The notes under the pieces are model-generated. The model did no database searches and was not told where the DNA came from. It saw only the letters and a program-made list of their open reading frames with translations. From Planctomycetota bacterium (GTDB taxonomy: Bacteria > Planctomycetota > UBA8108 > JACQVS01): a stretch of DNA of 64,000 bases. This document shows positions 4,926-17,930 of this stretch, in pieces. The DNA lies in assembly GCA_028280485.1 (NCBI GenBank), contig JANQLS010000002.1:1-64000 (forward strand). The letters are read 5' to 3'. The number at the start of each line of letters is the position of its first letter. Position 1 is the stretch's first letter. A program made the position numbers and the translations under genes.

Positions 4926-6161
4926 TCAGTCACTCTCCATTTTAAGAATCGCTTCTGCGAACGCCTTCCCGATTTGACTCATCGTTTTCGCACTGCCGTA
5001 GTAGTGATAGCCGCCGTTGGATCTGGCTGCCTTGGCGTAAGCAAGATCTTCATCACTGAGCAGCGTCTTGCGGAATTTTTCAACGTGAGCTTTCTGGGCT
5101 TTAGAATCCATAGAGCCATCTTTATTGGGGTAATCCTTGTGCTTGCTCTTAAGGAATCGAGCGAGTTGTTTTACCTTGCCTTGGTTTTCTTCGATCGCCT
5201 TGAGGCGCATATCCCAAAATGGGGCGGTTTCAACGGCAGTGACGTTTCCTTTAAATTCTGGAAGTGAGGCGGGTTGAGCCATCGCTCGACGAAAGCCTCC
5301 GTGAATGGGAACGTAACGTTGGCTTGTATATTTATCGAGAGGTCCACCTACACCCATCACTCCGATGACAAATTTCATTTTCGGGGCCGAGAGATCTTTT
5401 CTAACATCGCGAATGAAATGGGCCATACACTCGCTATATTGAGCGTAACCTCCCGGTTGACCTCGGTTAGGGTAAGTACCGCTGGCAACCATATCGTTCC
5501 ATCCTTGGAACCAAGCAAAGCCTGCCAATTCGTATCCTTGTTGAGAATCATACTTGGGGTAAACCCGTTTGATATCCGAGAGCACATGTTTGACGTGCTT
5601 GATCATCAAGCGGTAGAAATGACCCGTTTTCTTGGCTTTTTCGGCTTTGATTTCAGCTAAATTTTTTCCCCGCTTTTTAATGTTTTCGAGTTCCTTTTCG
5701 TTGAAACGATAAGGACCAGCCGAGGGAGGTCTAAAGTCGGTGTGAAGAGACTTGCCGCCCCATGCTGTCTTGATGATGAGTATGGGTTCCTTGAGAGATT
5801 TCTGCATATAGATCCCGAAGGTAAACTCGGGACCAATTTTATTGTTGGATTGCTTAGGATCTCTTCGCGAGCCCCAACCGGCGGTCAGTTTCCCGAATCC
5901 TTCTCCCAAACGGTCCCCACCTCCGGTGAAATAAGAGATGTAAGCTTCATCTAAAATACGGGGTTGTCCGTCAGGCCCGAGCATTTCCTTGAGAATCGGG
6001 GCAGTCACGGGATCTTTGGCCATGACTCCGAAGGTTCGAATATCAGCGTGGCCTTCCATATTGGATTGGCCGCTGAGGATGTAAACTTTTAGGGGTTTGG
6101 CTTGGAGGGTTAATGTAAATAGGAATGAGAAGATAAAAGCATAAATCTTGAGATGAATCAT
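4926..6161 (-). CDS. Sialate O-acetylesterase-like (SASA domain) carbohydrate esterase
   Basis: About 411 residues from ATG 6161, chosen because an AAGG box precedes it and a signal peptide (IYAFIFSFLFTLTLQA) follows; a longer frame starts at 6212. VYILSGQSNMEGHADI is the catalytic Ser block of the SASA (DUF303) family of SGNH-like esterases. WFQGWND is the second conserved block. These enzymes remove O-acetyl groups from sialic acid or other sugars, in the periplasm or outside. It leads a likely two-gene unit with the iduronate-2-sulfatase-like gene (about 95 bases downstream), suggesting combined de-acetylation and desulfation. The exact substrate is not determined; a sialidase at 63346 is consistent with sialic acid but distant. 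Confidence 0.85.
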   Translation of the reverse strand: MIHLKIYAFIFSFLFTLTLQAKPLKVYILSGQSNMEGHADIRTFGVMAKDPVTAPILKEMLGPDGQPRILDEAYISYFTGGGDRLGEGFGKLTAGWGSRRDPKQSNNKIGPEFTFGIYMQKSLKEPILIIKTAWGGKSLHTDFRPPSAGPYRFNEKELENIKKRGKNLAEIKAEKAKKTGHFYRLMIKHVKHVLSDIKRVYPKYDSQQGYELAGFAWFQGWNDMVASGTYPNRGQPGGYAQYSECMAHFIRDVRKDLSAPKMKFVIGVMGVGGPLDKYTSQRYVPIHGGFRRAMAQPASLPEFKGNVTAVETAPFWDMRLKAIEENQGKVKQLARFLKSKHKDYPNKDGSMDSKAQKAHVEKFRKTLLSDEDLAYAKAARSNGGYHYYGSAKTMSQIGKAFAEAILKMESD

Positions 6162-16754: not shown

Positions 16755-17125
16755 TCAGAAAGCCGTTGAAAGCCGCTACCTCAGAAAGCCGTTACCTAGA
16801 AAACCGTTACCTGGTAAAGCATCAAGAGGATTGAGTGAACGATAATGAGCAATCCTCAGAAACAAAGTTTTACATTAATCAATATTTGTAAGCCGGTTCT
16901 TTGTTAAACCTGTTTTCAATTCACTGAGTTCATTCTGGTCAAAAATGAGCTCAGGGGCAAAGTTTTCTTTCCGATTTCATATTCTTGTAAACCCATCTTT
17001 CCCAATTCCCTTACCAGGTAACGTTAAAGGATCGATTTCCCGTTACTAGGTAACGGAATTGGCGGGAATTGGGTTACCAGGTAACGGCAAAATCCATTAC
17101 CAGGCGACGGATTTAGCTCACTTTA
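16755..17125. repeat. GTTACC palindrome cluster 1
   Basis: This 571-base gene-free interval (16738-17308) holds a tandem of about 16 bases (AAAGCCGTTACCTAG type, 16755-16820) and then, at about 17008-17125, several copies of TTACCWGGTAA with flanking CG, some perfect (GGTTACCAGGTAACGG) and some decayed. Between these subclusters are two TTGTAA motifs, at 16887 and 16985. The same layout recurs at 17711-17930 on the other side of the cold-shock gene. No ORF in it is convincing. Confidence 0.75.
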
Positions 17126-17237
17126 CCCGGCAAGGTTAAGGGGTTCTTTGACTCTAATGAGATATTTCTTTGAAAGATCAATATTTATGGCCCATTTTCA
17201 TCTAAAGGTCGTTAGAATCTCTCTTTTTCGCGGCTTC

Positions 17238-17285
17238 ACGGCCATTTTGTTTAGCCGTAATATTTTTTTTAACTGCGTTGCAGTT
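17238..17285 (+). promoter_or_regulatory. Two hairpins in the cold-shock gene leader
   Basis: ACGGC...GCCGT (17238-17258) is followed by eight T residues, a short terminator-like hairpin. Immediately after comes AACTGC-GTT-GCAGTT (17271-17285). Together they lie 24-70 bases upstream of the GTG start, ahead of the ribosome binding site. Cold-shock genes are often controlled through their leaders; control here is an inference. Confidence 0.45.
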
Positions 17286-17308
17286 CATTTATTGAGAGGA
17301 ATAGTCAA

Positions 17309-17506
17309 GTGCCAGAAGGCAATATTAAAAGACTCACCGATAAGGGCTTTGGATTCATCGATAACGGTACCGAAAACGATTTGTTTTTCCATTCATCAAA
17401 TCTTGATGGGGTTAGTTTTGATGAACTTGAAGAAGGACAACGCGTTTCCTATACCGATGGGCATGGACCCAAAGGGCCACGAGCTGAAAATGTCAAACCC
17501 ATTTGA
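17309..17506 (+). CDS. Cold-shock domain protein (CspA family)
   Basis: A 65-residue single cold-shock domain, the usual family length. KGFGFID is the RNP1 motif and DLFFHSS the RNP2 motif. The start is GTG 17309, supported by GAGAGGA about 8 bases upstream. Such proteins bind single-stranded RNA or DNA and melt RNA structure in the cytoplasm. It stands alone, with a strong terminator at 17586-17628, and is flanked on both sides by the GTTACC palindrome clusters. Two hairpins in the leader suggest post-transcriptional or attenuation control. Confidence 0.93.
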   Translation: MPEGNIKRLTDKGFGFIDNGTENDLFFHSSNLDGVSFDELEEGQRVSYTDGHGPKGPRAENVKPI

Positions 17507-17585
17507 CAGTTATCGGTGAAACAAAGATATCTATCACGGAGAATCGAGCGCTGATTTAAGTAGATTTATTGGCATTCGAATGAGT

Positions 17586-17628
17586 AGAGATTCAGATCGC
17601 TCTAAGGTCTGGATCTCTATTTTTTTTA
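17586..17628 (+). terminator. Rho-independent terminator of the cold-shock gene
   Basis: AGAGATTCAGA pairs with TCTGGATCTCT (11 bp with one mismatch) around a short loop, followed by a run of eight T residues. It begins 80 bases after the cold-shock stop codon and reads in the same direction. Confidence 0.85.
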
Positions 17629-17710
17629 TAGACAATTAAGAACAAAGCAAAAGAACCAGATGAACGAAATTGGGCGACCTATAGAAACAAACATTTACAA
17701 AACTCCTGGT

Positions 17711-17930
17711 TTGTAAAATCAATCCTCCAAGAACTGATCTCGATCCAATGATTTTCAATTTGGACGAAAACGCACATCGCATGAAAGTGATCTTTCCACT
17801 ATCAAAATTTTGTAAACCCGCTTTTCCCGATCCCGTTACCTGGTAAGGGGGAGGGAATGGGAAAACCGTTACCTTGGGAAAACCGTTACCTGGTAACGGA
17901 ATTGGGTTACCTGGTAAGGTGGAGGGGGTC
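17711..17930. repeat. GTTACC palindrome cluster 2
   Basis: This lies in the gene-free stretch 17507-18056. TTGTAA motifs occur at 17711 and 17810, 99 bases apart (98 in cluster 1). The second is followed by CCCGCTTTTCCC and then four GTTACC units at 17821-17925, two of them within AAAACCGTTACC direct repeats and one a perfect CCGTTACCTGGTAACGG. A minus-strand 98-residue frame here (17636-17932) is Pro/Gly-rich only because it translates the repeat, and is not considered a gene. Confidence 0.75.

Follow-up and report, generated by a model that had tools for sequence, protein, structure and literature searches.

A REP-like palindrome family associated with multi-copy RAYT transposase genes in a Planctomycetota genome

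Described RAYT systems and the palindromes compared with them

The association between RAYT transposases and REPs was described by Nunvar 2010 (PMC2817692), and REPINs together with their RAYT by Bertels and Rainey 2011 (PMC3116915), as far as the available parts of these papers go. According to the accessible text of Corneloup 2021 (PMC8266576), recognition is single-stranded and strand-specific, and tnpA_REP is mostly present as a single copy. Di Nocera 2013 (PMC3733652) defines the GTAG and CGTC tags as well as the TIRtrons, and in its excerpted text REPs prefer convergent or tandem gene settings. The available part of PMC6006769 gives Y---NP as the signature of class 2 and describes TnpA_Y1 subclasses 2.1 and 2.3, which have long C-terminal domains, as being without REP-like structures nearby.

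The palindromes analyzed here occur in a 64-kb window (the whole stretch of DNA that was analyzed) and elsewhere in the same genome. They resemble the REP/BIME and RAYT system (REPtron; E. coli TnpA_REP), as presented in the accessible parts of PMC2817692 and PMC8266576, in that they are clustered extragenic palindromes, flank an HUH/Y1 gene, and differ from one RAYT to another. They differ from it by 17-bp CCWGG-centered units, by the absence of GTAG outside the palindrome and of covariation in the outer arms, by mixed orientation, and by whole-turn spacing. The copy number is 54 exact 11-mers, below the more than 100 given as usual for REPs in the available text of PMC2817692; at least four divergent copies of the RAYT gene and one deleted copy are present, whereas tnpA_REP is mostly single copy in that of PMC8266576. 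Like the REPIN, as far as the excerpts of PMC3116915 describe it, the repeat is non-autonomous and extragenic and has a cognate RAYT; unlike the REPIN, it shows no preference for inverted doublets, and a variable, phased spacing takes the place of one conserved hairpin. None of the open-licence papers listed by the literature searches deals with phased REPs, as judged by titles and opening abstracts.

Tn7-type ends carry several transposase (TnsB) sites of about 22 bp, TnsB being a DDE enzyme. The arrays described here are similar in having several candidate transposase-binding sites per end at a spacing of about two turns, while they differ from Tn7 in that the gene is of the HUH type and the palindromes are also dispersed on their own.

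Palindrome clusters in the window and in the genome

The repeated unit around the cold-shock gene is GTTACCTGGTAAC, and its copies are listed in Table 1. With at most one mismatch, TTACCWGGTAA occurs eight times in the window, compared with 0.68 (sd 0.87) in dinucleotide shuffles, of which 0/100 reached eight; seven of the eight lie within 16807-17917, on both sides of the cold-shock gene. The earlier note on this DNA counted at least seven units in 16755-17125, which is correct if decayed and half units are included and incorrect otherwise: three exact copies and one with a single mismatch are found in 16755-17145, together with decayed and half units. Its description of the unit as a variable, non-coding palindrome that is too abundant to serve a single promoter was borne out, and the matching cluster that it placed beyond the cold-shock gene was recovered, with three exact copies, a half-unit, and the shared 63-bp flank. 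The half-units form short tandems of 15-17 bp that enter a full palindrome (16776-16823 and 17858-17896), and these tandems are possibly slippage products. The 187-bp cluster matched only itself by blastn, which removes one long conserved repeat from consideration.

Table 1. Positions of the palindromic units, flanks, and gene around the cold-shock locus in the window
Feature	Position	Strand	Details
Exact TTACCWGGTAA, upstream cluster	starts 16807, 17011, 17074		direct sequence reading
Upstream cluster, part 1	16776..16820		two half-units (CCGYTACCT; 16776, 16792), 15-16 bp tandem
Palindrome CCGTTACCTGGTAA	within 16776..16820		center 16812; half-unit tandem leads into it
Flank of 63 bp, upstream-cluster copy	16959..17021	+	contains TTGTAAACCC; 76% identical to 17784-17846
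Palindrome unit CCCTTACCAGGTAACG	17008..17024		center 17016
Palindrome unit CCGTTACTAGGTAACGG	17040..17056		one core mismatch (17043); center 17048, 32 bp after the 17016 unit
Palindrome unit	17071..17087		center 17079, 31 bp after the 17048 unit
Two decayed units (17097, 17123)	17094..17142		centers 17102 and 17128
Cold-shock domain protein gene, between the clusters	17309..17506	+	65 aa; Pfam CSD E=1.1e-16
Flank of 63 bp, second copy, downstream cluster	17784..17846	+	
Exact TTACCWGGTAA, downstream cluster	starts 17836, 17886, 17907		
Palindrome unit	17833..17849		center 17841
Tandem of 17 bp	17858..17891		half-unit 17869; leads into the unit centered at 17891
Palindrome units	17883..17920		centers 17891 and 17912, 21 bp apart

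An operator or iteron of the cold-shock region, as considered in the earlier note, is unsupported, because the same palindrome is found in at least 30 places beside varied and unrelated genes (neighbors judged by eye and from ORF lists) and flanks all seven loci of the RAYT clade described below. No Rfam family reached its gathering score anywhere in the window, and the motif is present in many other places, which also rejects a cold-shock operator or RNA element. In this reading, the cold-shock gene would be a bystander of the palindrome clusters.

The genome consists of 9.37 Mb in 205 contigs, and the window is contig C165. The genome-wide count proposed by the earlier note yielded 54 exact copies of TTACCWGGTAA versus three of the reversed pattern; the 51 copies with listed places form 30 groups separated by more than 500 bp, so that the distribution is clustered and an even one is ruled out. 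Most copies are intergenic, a few lying in long open frames (e.g., on C77 and C92), and 89 of the 111 TACCWGGTA sites are in the intergenic 15% of the DNA read, according to a crude ORF caller. The DNA read amounts to 1.09 of 9.37 Mb of a single draft genome with crude gene calls, in stretches partly picked for presence of the motif, spacing being no criterion. An arbitrary sample of 20 stretches (312,651 bp) contained no TTACCWGGTAA, which is unsurprising at the genome density. The clusters are patchy, with several each on C94 (120 kb) and C60 (78 kb). A chimeric bin as the source of the patchiness was rejected; motif stretches and sample stretches have overlapping tetranucleotide profiles, some of the former being AT-richer.

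Among 58 relatives, 16 have any copy of TTACCWGGTAA, the highest number being 13 against seven for the control, and one genome of the same order has three against none. As few relatives carry copies and the numbers are low, the expansion seems to belong to the present genome or to close unsampled kin. Gene orientation around 34 classed clusters was divergent in 14, tandem in 8 and 5, and convergent in 7, and the background (n=341) comprised 105 divergent, 87 and 79 tandem, and 70 convergent pairs, all by crude gene calls. The 34 clusters therefore show no convergent or tandem preference, unlike the REPs in the available text of Di Nocera 2013 (PMC3733652).

RAYT loci and the palindromes of the paralogues

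The genome contains 16 Y1-transposase loci (11 by Pfam model, 10 by protein search, five common to both). Seven of these are at least 68% identical to the protein on C10 and constitute the RAYT-A clade. In the stretches fetched, TACCWGGTA lies beside the gene at 7/7 RAYT-A loci versus 0/9 other Y1_Tnp loci. The repeat flanks the RAYT-A gene on at least one side at all seven loci and on both sides at C10; the nearest 5' site is 274-289 bp away in three loci (C10, C176, C33), and the nearest 3' site 204-277 bp away in four (C10, C179, C58, C21). Complete genes are found on C10 and C179, the 5' side of the latter having only a decayed unit, while contig ends truncate the loci on C33, C176, C58, and C21. 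A RAYT-A fragment on C6 (12126-12404), covering residues 207-299, is preceded at a distance of 6 bp by a palindrome and followed by a decayed one; it looks like an internally deleted element and is a possible step towards solo arrays.

Pairs of RAYT-A copies share 69-91% DNA identity, except for 72 bp with which C58 begins and with which both C33 and C176 end in identical form; because of this shared segment the copies were probably collapsed in assembly. Contigs also break inside or directly behind RAYT-A copies (ends of C33 and C176; starts of C58, C21, and C94). The start of C94 resembles the sequence behind the RAYT-A fragment of C21, suggesting a further RAYT-A copy.

RAYT-A is an HUH/Y1 transposase of 301 aa, composed of an N-terminal TnpA_REP-like domain and a C-terminal part of ~160 aa. 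The alignment (A1) has H59-x-H61 and Y-x3-NP (YT..NP), i.e., the HUH motif and the single catalytic Tyr of class 2. The protein passes Pfam Y1_Tnp (27.1 vs. a cut-off of 23) and remains below the cut-off of NCBIfam NF047646, REP-associated transposase (43.3 bits vs. 80, E=3.3e-11). The family profile found 4er8 'TnpArep' as its best solved match (E=8e-4), and a PDB search by the RAYT-A sequence alone returned nothing below E=0.4. The motif NHFH is present, and the C-terminal half is conserved in homologues; this part gave no significant Pfam family and no DNA-binding family match, and neither HTH nor Bac_DnaA_C was matched at E<=1 in the six proteins scanned.

Likened by features (a long Y1 protein, a C-terminal domain, and Y---NP), RAYT-A is similar to TnpA_Y1 2.1/2.3 as given in the available part of PMC6006769 (Table 1 of that paper), where NH[YF]H occurs in subclass 2.1, and subclass 2.3 is multi-copy with divergent copies, as RAYT-A is. 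By its features it would thus be of the kind reported there to lack REPs; unlike subclasses 2.1/2.3 in that source, it has short phased palindromes beside it. TIRYTs, as far as PMC3733652 and PMC6006769 are accessible, bear long terminal inverted repeats (many GGGGWSAS), with HTH domains in the members of subclass 2.1; the short phased palindromes and the missing HTH match differ from this.

Searched against 198 genomes (its own included), RAYT-A matched in 78, and the best match outside its own genome by E-value was 35% identical. The nine same-family or same-order genomes (G001-G009) gave no match, and a plasmid search gave one weak match. Homologues of 24-39% identity in 10 other genomes (20 stretches) were without TTACC- or AACCC-like palindromes. 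Some GC-rich homologue stretches contain other recurrent words, and one of them (L212) has CGACC-n1-GGTCG three times (p=1e-4).

Three further RAYTs, on C191, C147, and C117, are 35%, 36%, and 31% identical to RAYT-A, respectively. The palindrome AACCC-W-GGGTT occurs 45 times in the genome (control 3), with 14 copies on C191:15-14224 around the RAYT of that contig, and TACCC-W-GGGTA occurs 11 times (control 4), with eight copies on C147:60190-70554 around the RAYT there. A motif-free scan of 13-kb stretches (5-bp arms, gaps 0-5, at least three copies) returned these as the sole palindromes at C191 and C147, respectively. At C10, the locus of RAYT-A, the 5-bp-arm scan found no palindrome with three copies, and the 4-bp arm TACC-n1 alone stands out, with six copies; the fourth paralogue, on C117, has no stand-out palindrome, the motif-free scan included. 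The palindromes are a REP-like family, given the association at 7/7 versus 0/9 loci and the cognate variant around each of two paralogues. That the RAYTs own these repeats is very probable, judging from sequence, and the co-distribution of paralogues and variants is the strongest evidence for it.

In the 1.09 Mb read, nnnCCWGGnnn palindromes were counted 51 times with TTA, 45 with AAC, 6 with CTA, 5 with TAC, and at most 4 with any other triplet, against an expectation of 0.39 each; the TTA and AAC counts are selected, as stretches were partly chosen for them, and those of the other triplets are unselected. A shared frame, CC-S-nnn-CCWGG-nnn-S-GG, emerges most clearly in the TTA family. Three paralogues here each have their own palindrome; since these palindromes differ by three base pairs per arm, recognition is testable by triplet swaps. 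Other Y1 transposases (L163 on C97, L164 on C182, L165 on C155, L166 on C193) were seen by eye to lie amid different palindromic repeats of their own, and the one around C97, GTAGTCCGCAGGC...GCCTGCGG, looks by eye like a classical GTAG REP.

Unit structure, spacing, and competing readings

The unit profile comprises 107 family-A sites (TACCWGGTA type; family B is the AACCC type) from 32 stretches, sites less than 60 bp from a stretch end being omitted from the total of 111. At arm positions 5-8, pairing deviates from the column expectation by no more than 0.05, family A shows no covariation at position 5 (Fisher p=1.0) or position 6 (p=0.65), and position 6 has C.C or G.G in 45 of 88 C/G cases. 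A single-strand stem would predict covariation of the outer bases, so that its absence counts against arms kept by a hairpin. The 'half-site pair' of the earlier note is in part upheld, the outer arm positions of the two halves varying independently. Folded alone as DNA, four single units gave z-scores of +1.1, -1.7, -0.9, and -0.9, and the values were -4.1 for a two-unit stretch of the window and -1.1 for 126 nt taken from another cluster; a stem-loop of 20-40 bp kept by pairing, as in REPs, was not found. Within the arm, GTAG is found as one variant (G at position 5 on the right in 36/107), and the 107-site profile has no conserved position further out, where the REP tag would lie. Neighbor orientation in 68 pairs less than 250 bp apart is ++ in 18, -- in 20, +- in 17, and -+ in 13, which is not the inverted or alternating arrangement of REPINs and BIMEs. 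Units have a polarity, which speaks against a simple dyad and would equally be expected of a strand-specific mechanism acting on single strands: with a central A, 35 of 107 family-A sites carry C at base 6 on either side, and in the AACCC family a central A goes with a preference for C on the right at position 6, so strand-specific recognition may still take place.

Center-to-center spacings of successive TACCWGGTA sites lie near 22, 33, 44, 56, 66, 77, and 99 bp (n=62, R(11)=0.515), and those from A to B are 22, 22, 23, 32, 33, 67, 76, 77, 87, 90, 101, 108, 121, and 132 bp (n=14, R=0.82). For all successive A and B spacings, R(11) is 0.552 (n=85, p~5.8e-12), with a best period of 11.05. Because some of the spacings inside one cluster depend on each other, the Rayleigh p-values err on the optimistic side and the cluster-level test is safer: 36/44 were positive and 0/50,000 jittered sets were as phased (p~2e-5, with the looser ACCCWGGGT as B), while for TACC sites alone 21/26 were positive and 1/20,000 jittered sets was as phased. 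The cluster bootstrap places the period at 11.10 (10.95-11.15), the phase is near 0 at 20-60 bp, and coherence fades past 300 bp. Taken alone, the AACCC family shows weak phasing (R=0.50 with n=10; p=0.0065 with n=25 in the loose form), and isolated half-sites in the same regions are unphased (n=96, R=0.07). The best of 151 other words reached n*R^2 = 6.5, versus ~26 for the palindromes (85 x 0.552 squared). Five other repeat words (n=12, 7, 8, 9, and 6; R(11)=0.27, 0.59, 0.50, 0.80, and 0.51) have no comparable multi-valued quantisation, their spacings being few and partly from like-sized copies; the word with R=0.80 (n=9, p=0.003) has eight spacings of 107-121 bp and a non-zero phase. Tandem duplication of an 11-mer was rejected as the source of the phasing, with no ghost palindromes between sites and short spacers unrelated by eye. 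A helical repeat of about 11 bp would be in keeping with negative supercoiling of the DNA.

The palindrome-RAYT family follows the known REP pattern, and its unusual features are the phasing and the absent outer-arm covariation. From the latter, together with spacings near multiples of 11.1 bp, we infer duplex recognition on the same face. The units would be copies of a REP-like, non-autonomous repeat belonging to the multi-copy RAYT of the same genome; RAYT elements would bear the palindrome at their ends, and solo arrays would have spread to intergenic DNA, both sides of the cold-shock gene included. A RAYT dimer, perhaps through its C-terminal part, may bind duplex CC-S-nnn-CCWGG-nnn-S-GG with neighbors on one face, the nnn triplet (TTA, AAC, or TAC) beside CCWGG setting specificity, and this phased complex could spread or keep the arrays, end and solo arrays being substrates or by-products of spread. 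We consider this explanation as a whole, RAYT-owned REP-like repeats read as same-face duplex sites, to be somewhat favored. For its component of duplex, same-face recognition by the RAYT the balance is even, and the broader notion of an HUH transposase family with duplex palindromes, a 3-bp code, one-face phased arrays, and mutually phased sites of paralogues is put forward tentatively, with rather more doubt than confidence. If it is true, long-C-terminal and supposedly REP-less Y1 proteins would gain cognate DNA and a duplex-binding step, which is not known for RAYTs. The 11.1-bp phasing is a sign, from sequence only, of the importance of duplex geometry in a group whose presumed substrate is single-stranded DNA, and spacing phase can be sought in any genome.

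The arrays could also be ordinary REPs or REPINs whose RAYT reads single-stranded hairpins as in E. coli, the 11-bp spacing having some other cause. An association with RAYTs, each paralogue having its own repeat, is the classical pattern in the available text of PMC2817692, the polarity and frequent C.C mismatch at position 6 recall the bulged group-2 REPs in that of PMC8266576, and the two-unit stretch of the window folds well single-stranded (z=-4.1). On the other hand, the outer arm bases do not covary, four single units fold with z between +1.1 and -1.7, no GTAG tag lies outside, orientation is mixed with inverted pairs in no majority, and the phasing between the two families is left unexplained; this account is therefore rated unlikely. 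We give a similarly low weight to an insertion bias, whereby copies land at fixed rotational positions on a wrapped or occupied target and phasing reflects target choice and not function. Integrases insert at such fixed positions on nucleosomes. The mutual phasing of A and B (n=14, R=0.82), though their RAYTs are only 35% identical, and the fading of coherence past 300 bp would fit such a bias, but the near-zero center-to-center phase at 20-60 bp fits same-face binding at least equally.

Still less probable is that the sites are operators for a cooperative regulator or a nucleoid protein whose gene lies elsewhere, and that the RAYTs only carry or adjoin them. Cooperative dimers that bind duplex DNA would generally give both helical phasing and independent half-sites, and the clusters lean to divergent gene pairs (14/34 vs. 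105/341 in the background); against this, each of the three variants goes with a RAYT paralogue of its own, in two cases through local crowding over 10-14 kb, and the palindromes lie at RAYT-A loci and not at the other Y1 loci (7/7 vs. 0/9). Chance or low-complexity sequence, to which the richness of the clustered intergenic DNA in C-runs and G-runs might point, has a negligible probability and is refuted by the controls (54 copies vs. 3 reversed, unphased half-sites, and n*R^2 of at most 6.5 for other words vs. ~26).

Beyond the present genome, named genomes scanned for pairs of TTACCWGGTAA lying close together yielded 29 stretches from mixed taxa, in which tblastn with RAYT-A gave a best E of 0.002 (L091, 24% over 62 aa). 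In the unrelated bacillus Litchfieldia alkalitelluris, the palindrome forms a clean inverted doublet, GTTACCAGGTAATGTTG-n8-CAACATTACCTGGTAAC (L071:4486-4525 and 5132-5171), with several such pairs in the genome, and no RAYT-A homologue was found within the stretches examined. Finally, two words are enriched within 150 bp of TACCWGGTA sites in the present genome, GTCCGAAT (5 near palindromes vs. 0.15 expected) and TTTGTAAA (8 vs. 0.83 expected), with examples in L054, L033, and L156; they are possible further shared parts of the element.
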